A stretch of 62,949 nucleotides of DNA, taken from the NCBI GenBank assembly GCA_015660815.1, contig JACSDF010000006.1, forward strand, positions 1-62,949, written 5' to 3'. Position 1 is the stretch's first letter, and the number at the start of each line of letters is the position of its first letter. Under the pieces are notes generated by a model, which was not told the origin of the DNA, did not search any database, and was given only the letters and a program-made list of their open reading frames with translations. The DNA is from Actinomycetota bacterium (GTDB taxonomy: Bacteria > Actinomycetota > Actinomycetes > Nanopelagicales > Nanopelagicaceae). Positions 1,883 through 62,949 of this stretch are shown in pieces. Both the position numbers and the translations under genes were made by a program.

Positions 1883-2851
1883 TTAAATTTCTGGAAAGTG
1901 ACAGGCAACTTGCGAACTACCGACCTGTAAAAGTTCGGGTACTTCGGTGCGACATCTGTCCTGAGCTTTCCAGCAGCGAGTGTTAAACACACAGCCGGTA
2001 GGAGGATTTACGGGGCTAGGTAAATCGCCAGAGAGAATAATTCGCTCACGGGTTTTTTCAGTGCGTGGATCTGGTTGCGGTACGGCAGATAATAAAGCTT
2101 TGGTATATGGGTGGTGTGGCGTGGCATACAGGGCATTAGTTTCGCCAATTTCCATAATCTTGCCCAAGTACATAACAGCGACTCGATCTGAAATATGTTG
2201 GACCACGGATAAGTTGTGTGCAATAAAAACCATACTGATTCCATCTTGCTCTTGCAGATCTTCAAGCAAGTTAATTACCTGCGCTTGAATTGAAACATCA
2301 AGGGCGCTAACTGGCTCATCAGCGATAATAAAACGGGGTTTTAGGGCGATTGCACGGGCAATACCAATGCGTTGGCGTTGCCCGCCTGAGAATTCATGAG
2401 GATATCGATTAAAGTGCTCCGGGTTTAAGCCAACGCGCTCCATAAGCGATTGGACGGCAACCTTCAGACCGCCTTCAGGTTCAATTCCTTGAATTTCAAA
2501 GGGTGCCGAAATAATCTTGCCAATAGTTTGTCGGGGGTTAAGTGCAGTGTAAGGATCCTGAAAAATAATCTGCATTTGAGATCGAAGTGGCCGCATTTTG
2601 CTAGGTTTAAGATCGGTAATGTCTTGACCTTCAAAGATTAAACGACCAGAAGTAGGTTCATTTAATTTCAATATTGTTCGTCCAGCAGTTGTCTTTCCGC
2701 AGCCAGACTCACCAACTAATCCAAGGGTTTCACCGGCACGTAAATCAAAGGAGATTCCATCAACTGCCTTTACCACTTGGTGCTTGCGCTTACCACTTAC
2801 TGGAAAATGCTTAGTCAGGTTTTCAACCTTCAAAATCACTTCGTTACTCAT
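1883..2851 (-). CDS. Peptide ABC transporter ATPase, DppF/OppF type
   Basis: Cytoplasmic ATPase of a peptide/nickel-class (family 5) importer, 322 residues. Visible motifs: Walker [13 protein letters not shown] near residue 48, Q-loop [17 protein letters not shown], signature [13 protein letters not shown], Walker [13 protein letters not shown], and a switch histidine in [10 protein letters not shown]. The C-terminal OppF-type extension with [15 protein letters not shown] (four-cysteine pattern that holds an Fe-S cluster in some members) is present. Its ATG overlaps the dppD-like stop codon by one base (TAATG), with AGAGG as ribosome-binding site, so the two ATPases are translationally coupled and act as a heterodimer. 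Confidence 0.93.
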
Positions 2852-3885
2852 TAGCGGACCTCTTTAAGTTCTTCTTCAAAGAGGCGATCTCTAGTTGCTT
2901 CGGCAACATGGCAACGTGAAAGATGTGTTGGGCTAATACCCAATAAATCCGGACGTTCGGTAGCGCAGATATCACTGGCTGCATAGGTCGAGAATTCACA
3001 GCGAGGTTCAAATGCACAGCCAATAGGTAAGTTGATTAATGAAGGTGGCTGCCCCGGAATTGCCTTTAAGCGCTCAGAGCCATGCGTTGAAATACGTGGA
3101 ACTGATTTGAGAAGACCTAATGTGTAAGGCGCAGCTGGTTTATAGAAGACATCATCGGCCGATCCTTGCTCAACTATTCGCCCGGCATACATGACAGATA
3201 CTTTGTCGGCTACCTGTGCAACAACACCTAGATCATGGGTAATCAACAAAATACCCATATTGAACTCTTTTTGAAGTGAGGCTAATAAAATCAAAATCTG
3301 CGCTTGAACCGTCACATCTAAGGCAGTAGTTGGCTCATCGGCTATTAGTACACGTGGCGAGTTCATGAGAGCCATTGCAATCATGACACGTTGACGCATT
3401 CCACCTGAAAATTGATGTGGGTATTCATGAGCACGTTGATCAGGTTCAGCGATGCCAACTAGATCTAACATCTCAATAGCGCGCTTAAGCGCTTCTTTTT
3501 TCTTGCCAGGATTATGGACTAAGTAACCTTCAGCTAATTGATTACCGATTCGGTAATAAGGGTGCAGGGAAGACATAGGATCTTGAAAAATCATCGCTAC
3601 TGCGCGTCCTCGTGCCAATCGAATCTCTTCATCAGTTGCTGTAACTATGTCTAAACTGCTATCTCCAACTTTTAAATGTATTGAGCCAGAGAGTTGAGCC
3701 GACCCTTTTTTATGTAGACCCATCACCGATAGACCGGTAACGGTTTTACCTGAGCCCGATTCGCCGACAATAGCTACGGTTTCGCCTTCATTTAAAGTTA
3801 ATGAGACTCCGTCAACTGCCCGAACTAGACCATCATCGGTCGGGAAGGCAACATGAAGATTTTCAATTCTTAGAAGTTCAGCCAT
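2851..3885 (-). CDS. Peptide ABC transporter ATPase, DppD/OppD type
   Basis: Partner ATPase of the peptide importer, 344 residues. Walker [12 protein letters not shown] near residue 41, Q-loop [17 protein letters not shown], signature [14 protein letters not shown], Walker [13 protein letters not shown] and switch histidine [15 protein letters not shown] are all intact. The C-terminal family extension has [11 protein letters not shown] and later cysteines. The start codon overlaps the stop of the dppB-like permease by one base (TAATG), the same junction as used for dppF, which indicates strict co-translation of the membrane and ATPase parts. Confidence 0.93.
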
Positions 3886-4877
3886 TAGATCCTCACACGT
3901 GGATCAAGAACTGCATACAGCATGTCGACGATCAAGTTCATAACAATAACTACCGATGCCGCCAAAATCGTTGTTGCAAGTACAACCGGTAAATCAAACT
4001 CAAAGACCGATCGCAGCGTTAATCGGCCTAAACCTGGAAGGTTAAAGATAGTTTCAGTAATAATCGCGCCACCAATAAGTCCTGCAAAGTCCAATCCTGC
4101 CAGTGTAATGATAGGTGCGAAGACTGCCCGCATTGTGTGCTTAAATAAAACCGTGCGCTCTTTAACACCTTTGGCTCGAGCAGTACGAATGTAATCTTCG
4201 CCCAATGTTTCCAGAACCGCCGCGCGCGTAAATCGGGTATAGAGCGCAGCATAAGCAATCGCCAACGTAATCCACGGCAAAATAAAGTATTGGAAAAATT
4301 TAAAGGGATTTTCAAACAAAGACGTATAACCAACTAATGAGAGTGGAACTAGCTTCCATTTAATTGTGACCCAGATCAATAACGCTAATCCAGTAACAAA
4401 AGTTGGAAGTGATGTCCCCAATAAGACGAAGATAGAGCTCACTCTGTCAGGCCACTTATTCTTAAATCTAGCGGCGATAATGCCAAGGCTTACGCCAACA
4501 GTTAGCCAAAGAATTAGCGCCCCAAGTGCCAAGCTAATCGTGACTGGCAATGACTCGCGCAGTAGGTCTGTAACACATGCATTCTCATTGAACGAGTATC
4601 CGAATGATGGTGCTGGACAGTTAAAGGCGGCGCTACCTGATCCGTATGAGCGTCCAAAGAAAATTCCACTTAAGAAGAGTAGGTACTGCATATAGAGGGG
4701 TTTATCAAAGCCAAGTTTGATTCGATTGCCTTCAATTATCTGTTCAGTACAACGCTGTCCGCAGGATAAGGCCGCTGGATCAAAGGGAACAAGCGAGAAA
4801 ATTATAAAGACAACTGCCGAAACAACTAAAAGCGTAATGATTGCGAAGAGAATTCGTCGAAGCAGAAAATTCCGCAT
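3885..4877 (-). CDS. Peptide ABC transporter permease, DppB type
   Basis: Integral membrane permease with an N-terminal segment MRNFLLRRILFAIITLLVVSAVVFIIFSL typical of DppB/OppB and the EAA-type cytoplasmic loop in DYIRTARAKGVKERTVLFKHTMRAV. I place the start at ATG 4877, since AGAGGAG lies 5 nt upstream; a GTG two codons earlier sits almost on the ribosome-binding site. Residues about 65-85 form a periplasmic insertion with cysteines (FNCPAPSFGYSFNENACV) between the first two helices. The gene follows the binding-protein gene after 125 nt that contain a strong hairpin, so permease expression is probably lower than that of the binding protein. Confidence 0.93.
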   Translation of the reverse strand: MRNFLLRRILFAIITLLVVSAVVFIIFSLVPFDPAALSCGQRCTEQIIEGNRIKLGFDKPLYMQYLLFLSGIFFGRSYGSGSAAFNCPAPSFGYSFNENACVTDLLRESLPVTISLALGALILWLTVGVSLGIIAARFKNKWPDRVSSIFVLLGTSLPTFVTGLALLIWVTIKWKLVPLSLVGYTSLFENPFKFFQYFILPWITLAIAYAALYTRFTRAAVLETLGEDYIRTARAKGVKERTVLFKHTMRAVFAPIITLAGLDFAGLIGGAIITETIFNLPGLGRLTLRSVFEFDLPVVLATTILAASVVIVMNLIVDMLYAVLDPRVRI

Positions 4878-4914
4878 CGTCACTCCTCTCGCATCTCATT
4901 GAAGCTATACAGTC

Positions 4915-4965
4915 AAGTAAATACTCCTGGCGCTAATCGAAATCAGCGCCAGGAGTACTTTACTT
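4915..4965 (-). terminator. Strong hairpin between binding protein and permease genes
   Basis: TACTCCTGGCGCT (4922-4934) and AGCGCCAGGAGTA (4945-4957) form a perfect 13-bp stem with a 10-nt loop; flanking AAGTAAA and CTTTACTT extend it with a single bulge. No run of U follows, so it may act as a partial terminator or as a 3' stabiliser of the upstream binding-protein message rather than as a full stop. Confidence 0.7.
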
Positions 4966-5002
4966 CGTACTTCTTAACTTATTGTGCAGTATTGACGTGT
5001 GA

Positions 5003-6757
5003 TTAGTCGTTAACCCACATCTTGCCAAATGCTGGGTTGCCCTGAGGTACCCAGAAGAACACACCGCCTACTTGTGATCCCCAAACAAACTGAGCTTTAC
5101 CAAAGATTGTTGGCAATACCCAGAAGTTCTTCATAGCCTGCGCATCTAACGCCTTCCACATTGCAGCCTGCTTTTTACGATCAGTGGTCAACATCGCAGT
5201 GTTGACACCCTTTTCAAATGCGGCATAAGCAGGATCGCTGGTGTTCTGTGAGATGTTAAATCCACCGAATGATGCGAATAGCTCTGGAATAACTGTTGAT
5301 GCATTTGCCCAGTCTGCTCCCCAACCTGATGCTGTTATGTCACTCTGCTTGTCAGGGTTCATAACCGTTGGGTAGTAGCCGGATGCGATTGGATTAAATG
5401 TGACCTTGATTCCGGCACGTGCATATGCTGCAGTGTCGATTGGAATTGTGTCATTAAGTGTGACCGATGAACGAACGTCAAACTTAATTCCAGTCTCAGT
5501 TGCCTTCTTGTAATCTGCAGGACACTTGGTCTTAGCAGTTTCCATGAGAGCAAGAGCCTTAGGAATGTTTCCGGTTGGAATAAAGTCTGGGCTTCCTGGT
5601 CCTACGACCTTGGTAGGTGCATAGTCAGTTGCTAGCAATGGGCTAATTACACCTGTTGCAAATGAGCCCGCATATGTTTCTCCACCAGCATAGTCAAGCA
5701 AAGCCTTAGCGTTGCGTGAGTAGTACATAGCTTGACGGATTTCGATACATGGCATTGCCTTAACGTTAAATGCAAAGTAACGAGCATATGGATCTGGGTT
5801 ATTCATACGACGATTCTTAAATGCAGCATCAGAGAAGAACTTGTCATTGTTTGTTGACAGAGGCTCTGCAAAGTTAACGGCCGTTGGAATTGTATCTTCC
5901 AAAATAATCTGGTCGATAACTTCTTCGTCGTAGCCAAACATGATGATAACTTCATCAGGGTATGGAGTACGAACTGGGTCTGAAGCCTTCGACCACTTTG
6001 AGTTACGAACAAGCCTTAGCTGAGTCTTGCTATTTTCTGCGATCTTATAAGGACCCGTTGATTGTGGACGTAGGTCGTACTTATCACCTTTGTCTAACTT
6101 AGCTTGGACAGGAGATATAACTCCATACGTTCCAAGATAGTTAAAGTCGGCAACTGATTTATTGAGATTGAATGTAATTGTGCGGTCATCTTTTGAGCAC
6201 GATACTGCCTTCTTGAAGGCTGCTAATCCTGCTGGGTCCTTTACGTATGGACCTTTGAAAACCGAGTTTCCATCGGCATCCTTTGGAATATTTAACCAGG
6301 CTTGTAAGTAGCCAGGACCGTCGGTGATGACGTCAGTTGCGAAGACGCGTGAGACTCCATATTGAACATCCGTACACGTGATTTTTTTGCCATCTTCAAA
6401 AGTTGTACCTGGGCGAAGTGTGAACTTCCAGGTCTTAGCTGCATTGCTTGGAATACCAGTGTTAGTTGCAAGGTCGGCAACAAGAGTTGCACCAGCTGCA
6501 CCTGGAACTGGATTGTAAGCAACGAGTGTACGAGTCATGAATGAGTTCATAAAAGCCAAATCGCGCCCTGTGTAAATACGAGATGGGTCGTAGTGATCTA
6601 ATCGCGGAGTGTGCTCAAGAAAAGTGAGAATTCCACCAGTCTTAGGTTTAACAGCCGCGGAGGCAGATGGTGCACCAGCGACCAGTACGGCGCTGACGGC
6701 AAGTGCGCTTGAAGCAGTTATTACTGCAGCACGACGAAGAGCAGAGAGTTTGCTCAT
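5003..6757 (-). CDS. ABC transporter substrate-binding protein, family 5 (peptide type)
   Basis: Extracytoplasmic binding protein of 584 residues, the usual size for the SBP_bac_5 family (DppA/OppA). I choose ATG 6757 because AAAGGA lies 9 nt upstream; an in-frame ATG six codons earlier contains that same site. The N-terminus MSKLSALRRAAVITASSALAVSAVLVAGAPSASA is a Sec signal peptide with an A-X-A cleavage site and no lipobox cysteine. Family features include GGILTFLEHTPRLDHYDPSR, the TWKFTLRPGTTFEDGKKITCTDVQYG block and a C-terminal half with multiple cysteines. Substrate unknown; peptide-like by association with DppBCDF. It sits between dppC and dppB, an uncommon order. Confidence 0.93.
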   Translation of the reverse strand: MSKLSALRRAAVITASSALAVSAVLVAGAPSASAAVKPKTGGILTFLEHTPRLDHYDPSRIYTGRDLAFMNSFMTRTLVAYNPVPGAAGATLVADLATNTGIPSNAAKTWKFTLRPGTTFEDGKKITCTDVQYGVSRVFATDVITDGPGYLQAWLNIPKDADGNSVFKGPYVKDPAGLAAFKKAVSCSKDDRTITFNLNKSVADFNYLGTYGVISPVQAKLDKGDKYDLRPQSTGPYKIAENSKTQLRLVRNSKWSKASDPVRTPYPDEVIIMFGYDEEVIDQIILEDTIPTAVNFAEPLSTNNDKFFSDAAFKNRRMNNPDPYARYFAFNVKAMPCIEIRQAMYYSRNAKALLDYAGGETYAGSFATGVISPLLATDYAPTKVVGPGSPDFIPTGNIPKALALMETAKTKCPADYKKATETGIKFDVRSSVTLNDTIPIDTAAYARAGIKVTFNPIASGYYPTVMNPDKQSDITASGWGADWANASTVIPELFASFGGFNISQNTSDPAYAAFEKGVNTAMLTTDRKKQAAMWKALDAQAMKNFWVLPTIFGKAQFVWGSQVGGVFFWVPQGNPAFGKMWVND

Positions 6758-6882
6758 TGGCGTATGTCCTTTCATTGGGGGCGCAACGAAGACGCCAGTA
6801 AAGGTGAGTCAAGCAGAAAATGTCCGATTTGGGAATACAGATAAGAGATTTCTATGTAACGAGTTGCCTAAATATCACGGAT

Positions 6883-7848
6883 TTAGCGATCGGCCTTCGG
6901 ATCTAATGCATCTCGGAGAGCGTCACCAACAAGGTTAAAAGCTAATACAACAATCACTAATGAGCCTGCAGCTATGAGGAAGAAGCTAGGCATAACGGTT
7001 ACGTAACGCGTTGCATTTGAGAGCAAGATTCCCCATGTCGATGCTGGGGGTTGAACTCCAAGGCCTAAAAAGGAGTAAACAGCTTCTGCCGCTAGGTAAC
7101 CGGGCAATGAGAGAGAAACGACGACGATAACCGGCGCCCAAAGATTTGGAATGAGCTCTTTCGTGATAATTCTCCATCGGCCAGCACCCATTGCTTGCGC
7201 AGCGGTTACGAACTCACGCTCACGAAGACTTAGAACCTGCGAACGGATTAGCCGTGAAAATCCTGGCCAACCAAAAAATGAGAGAAAGAAAACCAAGAAA
7301 ATAATGCGAGCGCTATTTCCTTGTGCAATGCCTGAATCTTCAATTCGAGCAACCACTGGCTGATTGAGCGCAACAATCATGAAAAACGCTGGAAATGCTA
7401 AAAGAAAATCGGTGGTCCGACCCAAATAGTTATCGATTCGCCCCCTGAAATATCCGCCGATGATTCCGACAAATAATCCGATAGTTAAAGCGGTCACAGT
7501 TGTTAAAATCGCAATTAAAAAGGAAATTCGTGAACCGTAGAGGAGTTGCGCAAGAAAATCGCGACCTGTACCAGGGATTAAACCGAGTGGATGATCCCAA
7601 GTGAAGCCAACTTCAGGTATTCCACTGACATCTAAGACATCTAAATTCAAAGTATCTGGATCTACTCCGATAATTTTTGCAACAAGCGGGGCAAAGAGTG
7701 AGAGCAAAAGAATTGTAATACTCACAATTGCAGCGCCAACTCCGACTTTATTGCGCTTAAAACGCATCCAGGCAATTTGTCGAGGACTACGGCCCTGAAT
7801 TCCGCCAACATTAAGCGGGATTTGGGCAATCTCTGATTTCGGACTCAC
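6883..7848 (-). CDS. Peptide ABC transporter permease, DppC type
   Basis: 321-residue membrane permease. A cytoplasmic N-terminal tail (SPRQIAWMRFKRNKVGVG) precedes the first helix, followed by GTGRDFLAQLLYGSRISFLIA, the DppC hallmark, and the EAA loop REREFVTAAQAMGAGRWRIITKELIPN. It ends LVGDALRDALDPKADR, also characteristic. The start is a GTG at 7848 placed 7 nt after a TAGAGT hexamer, so this is probably the first gene of the importer operon and is read from a leaderless message. The binding-protein gene follows after about 125 nt that may hold a second promoter. Confidence 0.92.
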   Translation of the reverse strand: MSPKSEIAQIPLNVGGIQGRSPRQIAWMRFKRNKVGVGAAIVSITILLLSLFAPLVAKIIGVDPDTLNLDVLDVSGIPEVGFTWDHPLGLIPGTGRDFLAQLLYGSRISFLIAILTTVTALTIGLFVGIIGGYFRGRIDNYLGRTTDFLLAFPAFFMIVALNQPVVARIEDSGIAQGNSARIIFLVFFLSFFGWPGFSRLIRSQVLSLREREFVTAAQAMGAGRWRIITKELIPNLWAPVIVVVSLSLPGYLAAEAVYSFLGLGVQPPASTWGILLSNATRYVTVMPSFFLIAAGSLVIVVLAFNLVGDALRDALDPKADR

Positions 7849-55896: not shown

Positions 55897-56349
55897 TCAA
55901 ACCGCCGATCGCACGAAAATCAGCGTGGCCGCCGAGGCAACTGGAGTCGAATATCCAATTCGCGTGACGGAGGCGCTCACCCGGATAAGACCCGGATAAA
56001 TGGGTGGGCAACTCGTGGGATCCCATTGGGGTACCAGTGTCACACCCCGTGGGTCTTTCACTGGTGCCGGTGCTACCTGCAAGAACGTAGTTATATCCCG
56101 ACAACTTGGTTCGGTAGAAGCTGGCGAGCGTACGGCTCGCGCACCTTCTATCTGCTGATTGACAATCTGTGTTGCGGTCGCAATCGTGGTATTCATACCA
56201 GAGTCCTTAACTGGGCTAATCGTCAGTGCAATGTAGGAGATAAGCAGCGCTCCAAGAAGAAACATCGAAACCACAATCGTAATTACACCAAACGCACGCT
56301 TGGAACTACGCACTTCTCCGATGGCTGGTTCTAAATGGTTGACCTTCAT
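55897..56349 (-). CDS. Membrane-anchored extracytoplasmic protein, likely target of the adjacent regulator
   Basis: 150 residues not assigned to a family. A cytoplasmic N-terminus (about 20 residues) is followed by one transmembrane helix (FGVITIVVSMFLLGALLISYIALTI, about 20-44), then an external domain of about 105 residues with two cysteines in PSCRDITTF and PTSCPPIYPG that may pair. The layout recalls minor pseudopilins, but the GF(T)LIE cleavage motif is missing. AAGGG precedes the ATG. About 110 nt upstream is a copy of the operator-plus-promoter unit found before the regulator, so the two genes are probably co-regulated. Confidence 0.7.
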   Translation of the reverse strand: MKVNHLEPAIGEVRSSKRAFGVITIVVSMFLLGALLISYIALTISPVKDSGMNTTIATATQIVNQQIEGARAVRSPASTEPSCRDITTFLQVAPAPVKDPRGVTLVPQWDPTSCPPIYPGLIRVSASVTRIGYSTPVASAATLIFVRSAV

Positions 56350-56455
56350 CCCTTAACCTGCCCTACTTGTTCGCCACTACTGAAGAATCTCTGACTTATC
56401 CTGACCAGTCATTCCTAATAGTTAAACTTGACCATTTGTATAGTCTCTGTGGATG

Positions 56456-56487
56456 TATCTTACAGTTAGACTTCACAAATTGTAAAG
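56456..56487 (-). promoter_or_regulatory. Operator copy A with overlapping promoter
   Basis: On the plus strand TATCTTACAG (56456-56465), 5 nt, then CTTCACAAATTGTAAAG (56471-56487), an interrupted palindrome. On the minus strand this reads as a -35-like TTTACA (56481-56486), 18 nt, and -10-like TAAGAT (56457-56462), pointing at the 150-residue membrane protein gene with a leader of about 100 nt. Confidence 0.6.
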
Positions 56488-56559
56488 ATATTTTGTAATG
56501 TTATTTTTTTGGTACCAGAAAAAGAGCTGTCGAAATCCCGTACCCACATAGTGCGACTA

Positions 56560-57861
56560 TCAGACCTTAGATCCCAAAAGTGTCTTCGATTCTTCCTGGG
56601 ATGCCGCTGCGGTAGCAGAGAGAGCTTTTTCGTAGGCGTCAATTGCCCGCTCCTGTAAACCCATCTCCACAAAAACCCTGGCAACCTCTCCCCAATATAC
56701 GGCCACTTCCTTCGAAGGTTCCATATCCACTGCATGCTGTAGTGCGAGTTCTAATTGAATCTGCGACTCTTCAACCATGCCTAACTTAAAGAGGACCTTT
56801 GCCTCAAGGCAGAGCAACCTAGCCCTTGGACCAGGAACATCTTTTGGTAACTCAGTTAAGCCTTTCCGAACAAACATCAAGGCATTGGAGGGATTGCCTC
56901 GGAGTAGTTCGACCTCAGAAAGAGTTAGGCAGGCATAGGCTGCAGGGACAGAATGGTTCTGTGAAGTGAAATGGATGTAGGCGACTTCTGCAAGATTGTG
57001 AATCTGATCCAAATCCGGGTTAGGCAATTCCAATAAAATCCTTGCAGCGTTATTATTCAATGCGGGCACAACATCATTGAGCTCGGCCACCTTGGACCAA
57101 TGGAGAGCATTTGTGATGTGGTGAAGCGCAAGGGAGAGGTCGCCTCGGCTCTCGGCCAGCATGGACGACTGCCATTGTGACTGAACCATCGCTTTCGGAG
57201 ATTTACACGCCTCGGCCAGCTCCAGAGCCTGTGTAACTAATTCGGAAGCTCGATGTGTGTCTCCGCGGTGAAAATGACAACTTGCTACGAGGCAGAGCAG
57301 TTCAACGACCTCAGTCTCAGGCCAAGCGGTTGCAAACTCCCGCAACATTTCCTCACCTCTCTGAGCCCCCATCCCGAAATCCCCAGATCGAAAGCAGACT
57401 CTGACAATTTCATTTCCAATACGGACGCGGAGCTCAGGAGCCGCTTGGGGATGATCATCAAAGAGGCGTTCAAGTTCATCCAGAACGCCCTCAACTTTAC
57501 CTTGCCGAACCCGCACCTGGATGAGCACTACCGCGGCAGCAAGTCTGGCGCCATTGTGATCTCTACTCGAATCAATAATTTGTCTTGCGTAATTTTCGGC
57601 ATCATCTAGATTGCCAGAACTCAAGGCTACTTGAGCCACATTTAAGCTCCAGTCAACCTCTTGATCTCCCTGATCAATGATTAACTCTGCGACCGAGACA
57701 CCCAAACGAGAAGCAAACTGGTCGACCAATTCCGGCTTTGGCTTTCTTTTTCCAGCTTCCAATAGTGAAATATAACTGGCCGCTGAAATACCATCAGCTA
57801 ACTCGGCTTGGGTTAGACCAGCCGCCTCGCGCAGATTTCTTAATCTAGTGCCAAAATCCAT
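56560..57861 (-). CDS. XRE-family HTH regulator with TPR-like C-terminus (RRNPP-like)
   Basis: 433 residues from ATG 57861, chosen because AAAAGGAAG lies 5 nt upstream; longer starts run through the promoter. Residues 1-60 are a Cro/CI-type HTH (FGTRLRNLREAAGLTQAELADGISAASYISLLEAGKRKPKPELVDQFASRLGVSVAELI). From about 70 to 425 there are repeated 34-36-residue helical pairs with TPR spacing (LSSGNLDDAENYARQIID, CHFHRGDTHRASELVTQALELAE, VFVEMGLQERAIDAYEKAL). Size and order match NprR/PlcR-like RRNPP receptors, whose TPR groove binds a re-imported peptide; NNNAARIL near residue 320 offers Asn residues of the kind that contact peptide backbone. Divergent from a 51-residue exported peptide. Codon use looks more GC-rich than the neighbours. 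Confidence 0.85.
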   Translation of the reverse strand: MDFGTRLRNLREAAGLTQAELADGISAASYISLLEAGKRKPKPELVDQFASRLGVSVAELIIDQGDQEVDWSLNVAQVALSSGNLDDAENYARQIIDSSRDHNGARLAAAVVLIQVRVRQGKVEGVLDELERLFDDHPQAAPELRVRIGNEIVRVCFRSGDFGMGAQRGEEMLREFATAWPETEVVELLCLVASCHFHRGDTHRASELVTQALELAEACKSPKAMVQSQWQSSMLAESRGDLSLALHHITNALHWSKVAELNDVVPALNNNAARILLELPNPDLDQIHNLAEVAYIHFTSQNHSVPAAYACLTLSEVELLRGNPSNALMFVRKGLTELPKDVPGPRARLLCLEAKVLFKLGMVEESQIQLELALQHAVDMEPSKEVAVYWGEVARVFVEMGLQERAIDAYEKALSATAAASQEESKTLLGSKV

Positions 57862-57883
57862 TGGACTTCCTTTTCTCTTTGAA

Positions 57884-57921
57884 TTGGTATATCTTACAGC
57901 CAATCTTTACAAATTGTGAAG
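57884..57921. promoter_or_regulatory. Divergent operator-promoter region, copy B
   Basis: TATCTTACAG (57890-57899), 5 nt, CTTTACAAATTGTGAAG (57905-57921). For the regulator (minus) it supplies -35 TTCACA (57915-57920) and -10 TAAGAT (57891-57896), 18 nt apart. For the peptide gene (plus) TTGGTA (57884-57889) and TACAAA (57908-57913), also 18 nt apart, are candidates. The palindrome overlaps both promoters, as expected for autoregulation. Confidence 0.6.
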
Positions 57922-57937
57922 GCCATTAGGGAGAATT

Positions 57938-58093
57938 GTGAAGAAGATAATTGCCGTAATCCTGACCGTTGCGTTCTTGGCCGCATCGCCTGCACAGGCA
58001 GCTCGCAAAGACGTGAAAACTCCATCCACTGATGGCGGAATAGTTATGACAACTCAATCCGTTGGTGGCGGAATTTGGTGCTGCTTAGTCTAA
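57938..58093 (+). CDS. Small exported peptide, candidate signal (Phr/SHP-like) precursor
   Basis: 51 residues starting at GTG 57938, with AGGGAG 4-5 nt upstream. Residues 1-21 form a Sec signal peptide (MKK, hydrophobic core IIAVILTVAFLAA, then SPAQA and predicted cleavage after Ala21). The mature 30 residues begin ARKDVKTPSTDGG and end with the hydrophobic SVGGGIWCCLV. Divergent from the HTH-TPR regulator, 76 nt between start codons, sharing an operator. By analogy with RRNPP circuits it may be secreted, trimmed and re-imported to act on the regulator. Alternatives are a toxin-like or bacteriocin-like peptide or an envelope peptide. Too short for the ORF survey, so easily overlooked. Confidence 0.7.
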   Translation: MKKIIAVILTVAFLAASPAQAARKDVKTPSTDGGIVMTTQSVGGGIWCCLV

Positions 58094-58164: not shown

Positions 58165-58204
58165 GGCAAGAAACCTTTGTAGCGCGCAGCAAAGGTTTCT
58201 TGCC
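58165..58204. terminator. Perfect 15-bp hairpin downstream of the peptide gene
   Basis: GGCAAGAAACCTTTG (58165-58179) and CAAAGGTTTCTTGCC (58190-58204) form a perfect stem with a 10-nt loop TAGCGCGCAG. No U-run on either strand. It lies between the peptide stop and the convergent DUF305 stop, so it could end both transcripts. Confidence 0.6.
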
Positions 58205-58275: not shown

Positions 58276-58911
58276 TTAACTAAGTCGGGCAATCATCGCC
58301 TTCATCTGCTCGATTTGCGCGGTTTGGTCCCGAACAATATCTTCCCCAAAACGTTTAATCTCAGAGTTTTTTGCATCTTCAATCATTTGGCTCATATGGA
58401 TAGCTCCATCGTGGTGATCCGTCATTCCTTTTAGCCACAAGAGATCAAAGTTTTTTCCACTCGCAGCATTTAAGGTAGAGAGTTCGGCTTCGGTGAGCAT
58501 TCCACCCATTGAACCCCCCATCGAGTGTCCCATCGAATGTCCCATGCCGCTACCGACATTAGCTTGATCAAGCCATGACTCCATTTTAATTATCTCGGCA
58601 GATTGTCCTTCTTTAATATCTGTGGCTAATGCAATTAATTCAGCGTCCTTCGATTTCGCTATAGCCACAATCGACATATCTATCGCCTGTTGATGATGCG
58701 GAATCATCATTTCAAGAAACATAATGTCAGCACCCGACAGATCCGATGAGCCATTATTATGATTTGAACCCATCATTCCAAAGCCTTGCATGCCGAAAAA
58801 ACCACGCTCATTGTCGCGCGACATCCCCATGTTCACAATAATGATAAGCAGAATGACGATAATTCCACTCAAAATTCCGGTCTTCTTATCAATATTGATC
58901 TGCATGCGCAA
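58276..58911 (-). CDS. DUF305 family protein, membrane-anchored, Met/His-rich
   Basis: 211 residues. N-terminal signal anchor (KTGILSGIIVILLIIIVNMG, about 10-30), then the ferritin-like DUF305 domain with two repeats of the H-H pattern: FLEMMIPHHQQAIDMS near residue 66-82 and WLKGMTDHHDGAIHMSQM near 160-178. Between them is a metal-binding-looking stretch MGHSMGHSMGGSMGGM. DUF305 proteins are often encoded with copper-handling genes, so metal binding in the periplasm-like space is plausible but no copper gene is adjacent. Confidence 0.9.
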   Translation of the reverse strand: MRMQINIDKKTGILSGIIVILLIIIVNMGMSRDNERGFFGMQGFGMMGSNHNNGSSDLSGADIMFLEMMIPHHQQAIDMSIVAIAKSKDAELIALATDIKEGQSAEIIKMESWLDQANVGSGMGHSMGHSMGGSMGGMLTEAELSTLNAASGKNFDLLWLKGMTDHHDGAIHMSQMIEDAKNSEIKRFGEDIVRDQTAQIEQMKAMIARLS

Positions 58912-61452: not shown

Positions 61453-62949
61453 TTATCCGTTTGCGGTCTCACTGGCTTTTATGTACCAGGTAGTTCCTTC
61501 TGATCCAGTATTGCCGCCCTTGTTGCTGGCGTCACAAGCGCCCCACGTAATTTGGCCACCGATTCTTATACAGACTGGCATGCCTGTTCCGCCGCCTCCA
61601 GCAGGACCGGCAGGTCCTGTTGCCCCAGTTGGGCCGGCAGGTCCTGTTGCACCAGTTGCACCAGTATCACCCTTGACGCCCTGTGGGCCAACAGCACCAG
61701 TTGCACCAGTTGGGCCAATTGGGCCCATTGCACCAGTTTGGCCCGTTGCACCAGTTGCACCAGATGCACCAGTTGCACCAGTTGCACCAGTTGCACCAGT
61801 TAAGCCGATTGGGCCTTGAATACCTTGAATACCTTGAATACCTTGTGCTCCGGTTTCACCTTGAATACCTTGTGCTCCTGCCGCTCCTGCCGCTCCTGCC
61901 GCTCCTGCTTCACCAGGTGCTCCAGGTGCTCCAGGTGCTCCAGCGTCACCTCTAATTCCCTGTGGACCCACGGCTCCGGCTGCTCCAGTGGCACCCTGTG
62001 GGCCTTGCATTCCATCTAATCCCTGTTTCCCATCAGCTCCAGTGGCTCCGGTGGCTCCAGTGGCTCCGGTGGCTCCAGTGGCTCCGATAGCTCCAGTTAA
62101 TCCTTGTATACCTTGTATACCTTGTATACCTTGTGCACCAGTCGAACCGGTATCACCCTTGATTCCCTGTGGTCCAATAGCTCCCGCTGCACCAGTTTCG
62201 CCGATTGGGCCTTGAATGCCTTGAATGCCTTGCGCGCCAGTCGCACCGGCTGAACCAGTCGCTCCCGTTAATCCAATCGCACCTTGCACCCCTTGAATAC
62301 CTTGTAATCCTTGGGCGCCAGTAGCACCGGTTGCGCCAGTATCACCGGTTAATCCCTGAATTCCTTGCAATCCTTGGGCTCCAGTAGCACCTGCTAATCC
62401 TTGTATTCCTTGCGCTCCCGTTAATCCTTGTATTCCTTGCGCTCCAGCGGCACCAGTCGCACCAGTTAAGCCAGTCTCACCTTGTACTCCTTGCGCTCCA
62501 GCGGCACCGGTTAATCCTTGTATTCCTTGCGCTCCAACGGCACCGGTTAATCCTTGTATTCCTTGCGCACCAGTAGCACCGGTTGATCCAGTCGCGCCAG
62601 TAGCACCGGTTGATCCAGTCGCTCCAGTATCACCCTGCGCTCCAGTTGCTCCGGTTAATCCCTGAATTCCTTGGGCACCAGCTAAACCTTGTATTCCTTG
62701 GGCTCCATTAGCTCCTGTCGCACCAGTTAATCCTGTCGCACCAGTTAATCCTTGTATCCCTTGTATCCCTTGTATTCCTTGCGCACCAGTAGCACCGGTT
62801 GATCCAGTAGCACCGGTTGATCCAGTAGCACCCTGCAATCCTTGTACACCCTGCGCACCAGTAGCACCGGTTAATCCTTGCAAACCTTGTAAACCTTGTA
62901 AACCTTGTAAACCTTGTAAACCTTGTAAACCTTGTAATCCTTGTAAACC
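61453..62949 (-). CDS. Collagen-like Gly-X-Y repeat protein, N-terminus outside window
   Basis: The frame is open from the right edge to TGA-region stop at 61453 (498 visible codons). About 430 residues are uninterrupted Gly-X-Y triplets dominated by [12 protein letters not shown] and GLQ, in a few longer repeat units ([22 protein letters not shown]). The run ends in [16 protein letters not shown], followed by a C-terminal domain of about 45 residues with two cysteines ([25 protein letters not shown]). Bacterial collagen-like proteins form triple helices on the cell surface. The start, any signal sequence and total length are not visible. The upstream 9-nt repeat TTTACAAGG (GLQ) at the right edge runs off the window. 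Confidence 0.9.
61860..62949 (-). repeat. Tandem Gly-X-Y codon repeats
   Basis: Nine-nt units dominate. The clearest run is at 62884-62949, plus-strand TAAACCTTG repeated six times (GLQ). Others are plus-strand TGCTCCTGCCGC-type units at 61876-61905 and repeats of GGCTCCAGT near 62040-62090. Such units allow slippage, so repeat number may vary between cells or be mis-assembled. Confidence 0.8.

Follow-up and report, generated by a model that had tools for sequence, protein, structure and literature searches.

The stretch of DNA analysed here (the window, 62,949 nt) belongs to a 1.59-Mb actinobacterial assembly that is 98% complete, and it carries a divergent gene pair. Encoded on the minus strand at 56560-57861 (ATG at 57861) is a protein of 433 aa with an XRE-type HTH followed by TPR repeats, which we propose to be an intracellular peptide receptor. 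On the plus strand, at 57938-58093, lies a propeptide ORF of 51 aa (MKKIIAVILTVAFLAASPAQA/ARKDVKTPSTDGGIVMTTQSVGGGIWCCLV, the two parts being split at a vertical bar), whose GTG start at 57938 is immediately preceded by AGGGAG. The interval of 76 nt between the two genes (57862-57937) contains a palindromic operator, CTTTACAAATTGTGAAG, at 57905-57921. An earlier note on this DNA had described this layout, and we recovered every element of it in place. The closest counterpart is found in a sister genome of the same genus (G037, represented by loci L002/L041), with a regulator 86% identical to that of the window. Downstream of the peptide gene both genomes have an inverted repeat, in the window GGCAAGAAACCTTTG...CAAAGGTTTCTTGCC at 58165-58204 (20-nt arms, 90% complementary), possibly a terminator. 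Further on, the window encodes a DUF305 protein whose N-terminus includes a hydrophobic stretch (58276-58911), of which an apparent remnant (by eye) lies elsewhere in the sister genome, and a long ORF of collagen-like Gly-X-X repeats that runs off the window end (61453-62949).

A second copy of the operator, CTTCACAAATTGTAAAG, is located at 56471-56487, upstream of a minus-strand ORF of 150 aa (55897-56349) whose product has, by eye, a single membrane segment at its N-terminus. Exact matches to CTTNACAAATTGTNAAG in the whole assembly are limited to these two sites. Allowing two mismatches added four sites to the assembly search, no more than in the reversed control, and a wider regulon was rejected, with no exact operator beyond the two. 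At the equivalent position between regulator and peptide, CTTTACTATTTGTAAAG is present in four loci with regulators 59-61% identical (L037-L040), and the second operator copy occurs, with changes, in the sister genome. Each window operator overlaps a promoter-like sequence on the minus strand: TTCACA-18-TAAGAT for the regulator (57891-57920) and TTTACA-18-TAAGAT for the 150-aa ORF (56457-56486). The region has four such promoter-like sites against a mean of 2.7 in shuffles, which is not significant alone. A third, degenerate copy of the promoter-operator repeat (72%) lies beside the second operator, at 56412-56443. Of 100 genomes searched, two contain the 150-aa ORF: that of the window and the sister genome, which are the two with a close regulator. 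The ORF had no match in Pfam. Its differences between the two genomes fall 10/13/8 by codon position, with no codon signal, so that its coding status is uncertain and we downgraded it from a firm to a candidate target.

The regulator matches HTH_31 (1.9e-12)/HTH_3, TPR_12 (1.6e-12), TPR_2, TPR_8 and TPR_14 over the Pfam cut-offs. To our knowledge, an N-terminal XRE HTH such as this one is present in all RRNPP receptors but Rap. An AlphaFold model computed with 78 sequences (mean pLDDT 91.1, pTM 0.79) predicts the HTH followed by eighteen helices, that is, nine TPR-like helical pairs. The top Foldseek rows for this model were Rap with CSF and the PlcR-PapR7-DNA complex (3u3w, E 5e-7). With VIA-align the highest similarity was to Rap-CSF (4gyo, Z 29.0 over 348 residues), followed by phage Rap-peptide complexes (Z 27-28) and phosphatase F, a Rap protein, with its peptide (27.1); apo NprR (5dbk) gave 25.5 over 349 residues, NprR-NprX 23.2 and AimR about 21. 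The TPR superhelix that the earlier note had postulated is thus predicted by the model, closest to peptide-bound Rap and near PlcR and NprR. The fold by itself is no proof, since unrelated TPR proteins score close, at Z 24-26 (APPBP2 25.6, MalT 25.1, LGN 25.0). In a sequence-profile search of the PDB the best natural match was PlcR (2.4e-16), covering the HTH and the first TPRs (profile positions 1-184); three designed TPR proteins outscored it.

The first 21 codons of the propeptide ORF (57938-58000) encode a putative signal peptide with a KK start, a hydrophobic core and an AQA-A site, recognised by eye and by hydrophobicity. Its Sec export is predicted from this site and from a rule of thumb for hydrophobicity and charge. 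The proposed signal region is the core GGGIWCC (58064-58084), which corresponds to GGGQWCC in the sister genome (L041) and to GGIWCC in L221, a member of the window's family. The "hydrophobic C-terminus" first ascribed to the peptide is therefore better termed a GGxWCC core. At the equivalent place, the sister genome encodes MKKIIAVILTVSFLAVMPAQAANPDRKVVTTNSPGGGQWCCDAIPA: 18 of the 21 signal-peptide residues and GGGxWCC are the same and the frame is intact through WCC, with a different tail beyond (GGGQWCC followed by DAIPA). In L221, GGIWCC stands at the very C-terminus, in the ending STIPGGIWCC. The window propeptide also contains an in-frame tandem duplication (58014-58074; 28-nt copies at 33-nt spacing, 82%; two-copy family D3), which could be chance. 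No Pfam or NCBIfam model matched the window peptide over cut-off, and the peptides of eight relatives gave weak matches to the same collections, none over cut-off.

Between the window and the sister genome, the peptide has 12 replacements and 1 silent change over 42 aligned codons, and the regulators 61 and 63, respectively (Fisher p = 0.003 for the contrast). The 150-aa ORF shows a similar replacement excess (p = 0.0025), so weak coding constraint and fast divergence look alike for this peptide pair. A clearer coding pattern is found in L037-L040, where the divergent peptides have the endings AAGCCG, NGCC, AQGCCG and AQGCCG. Their dN is 0.28-0.50 and their dS 1.9-3.7 in four of the six pairs (not estimable in two): these peptides are under purifying selection. 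The peptides of L060 and L062 differ by 6 silent changes versus 1 replacement. Pairs with L071 were left out of the Jiangella codon comparison, its downstream peptide being a non-orthologue.

Relatives were collected with an alignment of twelve regulators, and we named the best 80 of at least 555 loci. In these 80 we looked, up to 700 nt away from the regulator, for ORFs of 28-90 aa that begin with basic residues, contain a hydrophobic stretch and carry CC among the last 17 residues (hereafter CC peptides). Such an ORF is present at 65 of the 80 loci, compared with 5 of 148 equal-size windows elsewhere in the same loci, and four of these five look like true peptides further off or second copies. 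Under a stricter rule, which asked for a divergent ORF within 600 nt and for CC among its final 8 residues, the counts were 39/79 versus 13/1348 strand-windows elsewhere and 0/395 dinucleotide shuffles. The peptide ORF is thus kept beside homologous regulators, one of the observations on which the earlier note had made its proposal depend; together with the predicted TPR superhelix, it supports the RRNPP-like reading proposed there.

The orientation of the peptide relative to the regulator differs by clade. Among the 65 CC peptides of the best 80 loci (of at least 555), 41 are divergent and upstream, 17 convergent and downstream, and the others codirectional (6 downstream, 1 upstream), so a shared-promoter artefact does not explain the association. 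When the window peptide and two second copies are counted in, 54 of 68 peptides have CC as their last two residues. Tails also differ by clade, for instance PGDFCC in Jiangella, DVIDCC in Nonomuraea, DIPLCC in Streptomyces and DGWCC in Nocardioides, and one genome (G596) has three regulators, each with a different CC tail. An EamA-like transporter gene (by eye) is convergent to the regulator in 13 loci, which belong to two distant groups: L037-L040 and nine Jiangellaceae.

Using a profile built from 78 regulators (threshold E 1e-30), we found relatives of the regulator in 99 of the 394 genomes sampled from the class, the peptide having been examined in part of these, and in 38 of the 396 sampled from the phylum. 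The system is therefore not special to streamlined planktonic actinobacteria, to which it had initially been ascribed. Within the genus of the window, full-length matches occur in the window's own genome and in the sister genome only. Matches were also found in 29 records of a plasmid collection (a CC ORF is present at three of the six loci inspected and absent from the other three) and in five loci of viral contigs, where they are confined to the HTH or its vicinity. In addition, an unannotated faecal phage record (MT836207.1) encodes, at 86-1069, a relative of the Streptomyces regulator with 34% identity across 78% of the length.

By our rule, 15 of the best 80 regulators (of at least 555) have no CC peptide. 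A second sample was drawn as 60 places from the class search in three score tiers; four duplicates were dropped, leaving 56. CC peptides were present at 8/16, 8/20 and 2/20 loci by tier, a total of 18/56, mostly beside closer regulators; the 38 regulators without one include 18 of the 20 most distant. The CC rule fades as regulator distance grows. CC-negative loci were kept in the analysis, and we re-examined 37 of the 38 from the second sample. At four Streptosporangium-like loci the divergent peptides end in GWVYPG, SPWQWPI, GPWGYPI and GPLNNAE, and single loci have peptides ending in LDWPWI and SIEWP. The precursor at L261 comprises three tandem VGGSWPT repeats; these SWPT repeats and the duplication in the window peptide recall the tandem pheromone propeptides described in the available text of PMC11343458. 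Four Streptomyces-like loci share a common signal peptide with variable tails. Many of the re-examined loci showed nothing convincing, and some had another signal-peptide ORF.

Relatives from other classes of the phylum often lie beside a short divergent ORF with a signal peptide and an aromatic-Pro tail, namely 15 of 25 versus 0 of 428 strand windows; this count is descriptive and no independent test, because the motif was first noticed in those same loci. These ORFs have about 29 aa, retain few residues after the signal peptide, and end in SGYPWPK, AGFPWPK, ANWPHH, ANWPKH, APWPPCC, APWPHCC and similar sequences; 4 of the 15 contain Cys. What is conserved in the tails is Cys-Cys or aromatic-Pro rather than general hydrophobicity, which corrects the first reading. 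We consider it probable that the window pair belongs to a large Actinomycetota family and that this family has at least two kinds of peptide, Cys-Cys and aromatic-Pro.

We believe (with a probability of about 0.8) that the window pair is a signal-receptor pair working like the RRNPP circuits of Firmicutes, strict membership of which would require peptide binding. The peptide would be made as a propeptide, exported by Sec and cleaved after AQA. The C-terminal part around GGxWCC would then be released, return to the cell through an Opp-type importer and be bound by the regulator's TPR domain. A complete importer of the Opp/Dpp type is encoded in the window, as previously pointed out (1883-7848, minus strand; two oligo_HPY ATPases, two BPD_transp_1 permeases and one SBP_bac_5), and is a candidate for this route; SBP_bac_5 and oligo_HPY genes, parts of such importers, are also present on contigs C16 and C37 of the assembly. 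Opp-type importers are common, so the importer is permissive and not specific evidence. Peptide binding may alter the hold of the regulator on the palindromic operators, which overlap the promoters of the regulator and of the 150-aa ORF as well as the peptide leader. Repression by the free regulator, relieved by the peptide, would be expected because the operators sit inside the -35/-10 spacers, the sign being a guess.

RRNPP receptors and the system described here have in common a TPR protein of 250-500 aa, with an HTH in most, next to a small propeptide, whose secretion is predicted in the actinobacterial case; the modelled fold, the placing of a conserved motif towards the propeptide C-terminus and the presence of importer genes are also alike. 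Differences are the phylum (RRNPP comprises Rap, Rgg, NprR, PlcR and PrgX, from Firmicutes), the low identity in structural alignments (8-17%), the Cys-Cys or aromatic-Pro tails of the actinobacterial peptides, and the downstream position of 23 of the 65 CC peptides in the best 80 loci (of at least 555). NprR of the Bacillus cereus group, with an HTH, nine TPRs and a length similar to that of the window regulator, aligns with the model over 349 residues, as given above; there is no close relation in sequence (identity 12-13%), and the phosphatase role of NprR is not expected in the window regulator. PlcR shares the XRE HTH and is the best natural profile match, but its chain is shorter (293 aa), and the tail of its peptide PapR is unlike GGxWCC. 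Within Actinomycetota, the NsdA family of Streptomyces (NCBIfam NF053720) consists of TPR regulatory proteins of similar length with many copies per Streptomyces genome; the window regulator, however, reaches 34.9 bits where the cut-off is 75 and so falls outside the family by this model, and a whole-genome search of G000 with this model gave no match at E 0.001.

According to the available text of PMC10075063, a large survey, Actinomycetota typically use small-molecule signals and Firmicutes peptides, and an RRNPP receptor is expected to have about 250-500 aa. By the criteria given there the window pair agrees in size (433 aa), HMM-detectable TPR repeats, adjacency (76 nt) and small propeptide (51 aa, within 10-100 aa); its Sec export is predicted by rule of thumb. 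RRNPP sensing is described in Firmicutes in the accessible portions of PMC10075063 and PMC13220807, and the RRNPP_detector survey, as presented in the former, covered Firmicutes and viruses. A review of actinobacterial quorum sensing (PMC4748050) treats cyclic or modified peptides and gamma-butyrolactones, its main text, as far as available, being without RRNPP. Our search of the open-access literature, which left preprints and most subscription papers outside, found no actinobacterial system of an RRNPP-like kind. The system thus looks like an undescribed actinobacterial variant of RRNPP-like signalling with new peptide classes.

We weighed three other explanations. Vicinal Cys residues can bind Cu(I), and the Cys-Cys peptide might be a secreted copper- or thiol-binding peptide, with the regulator controlling metal homeostasis. 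In 18 loci (e.g. L049, L106, L067) the regulator is followed by CopD-like genes in the same orientation, and in 12 by CopC-like genes, all named by eye, and the DUF305 gene adjoins the peptide of the window. However, CopD-like neighbours are also found at loci without a CC peptide (L067, L090, L091, and L106, with the tail YGWGWPG), the CC loci of Jiangella, Streptomyces, Nocardioides and Nanopelagicales lie outside CopC/CopD clusters, Cys is missing from 11 of the 15 aromatic-Pro peptides, and in the sister genome the neighbour of the peptide is not DUF305. We consider this role very unlikely.

A second possibility, which we also regard as very unlikely, is that the small ORF encodes an antimicrobial or modified peptide (RiPP) and is under local control by the XRE protein. 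Such a product would agree with the small size, signal peptide, variable core and Cys tail, and an ABC-transporter-like cluster (named by eye) occurs at 8 loci, in scattered positions. Nevertheless, no conserved modifying enzyme was recognised by eye among the neighbour clusters common to at least three loci, the aromatic-Pro ORFs would leave a product of a few residues, and the TPR domain of the regulator is Rap/NprR-like. Finally, the small ORF could be a conserved envelope protein that merely lies beside an ordinary autoregulated XRE-TPR repressor: the functional link within the pair is one that we infer, and the regulator could sense something else. Against it, the peptide is upstream or downstream of the regulator depending on the clade, yet remains close to it, and G596 holds three pairs with different tails; we find this the least credible of the three.

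Returning to peptide signalling, it is likely, at a somewhat lower confidence than for the RRNPP-like reading of the window pair, that the loci represent a phylum-wide and undescribed superfamily of intracellular peptide receptors in Actinomycetota with pheromone chemistries of their own, some genomes having several orthogonal pairs. Its chemistries would be three: the C-terminal vicinal Cys-Cys, the minimal aromatic-Pro and the tandem-repeat precursors. If so, an aromatic-Pro signal of about five residues would be released by signal peptidase alone, and the RRNPP mode would either be older than Firmicutes or have been transferred beyond them. For the streamlined freshwater bacterium of the window, the pair would be a means of cell-cell communication.

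On plasmid pSMg1-1 of Streptomyces sp. Mg1 (L122), the CC peptide is an annotated CDS (WP_008741297.1, hypothetical protein) beside the regulator WP_008741298.1. Beyond the CC peptide and one more small gene, this locus encodes a BTAD regulator (WP_008741295.1), which is of a kind known to control antibiotics; with short synthetic peptides, peptide control could therefore be tested directly in Streptomyces. Near the regulator in seven Streptomycetaceae loci (L053, L059, L061, L069, L072, L080 and L082) we also observed a second small signal-peptide ORF with a tail containing NNTG or NNT, and the Mg1 locus has a second hypothetical CDS in the matching place.
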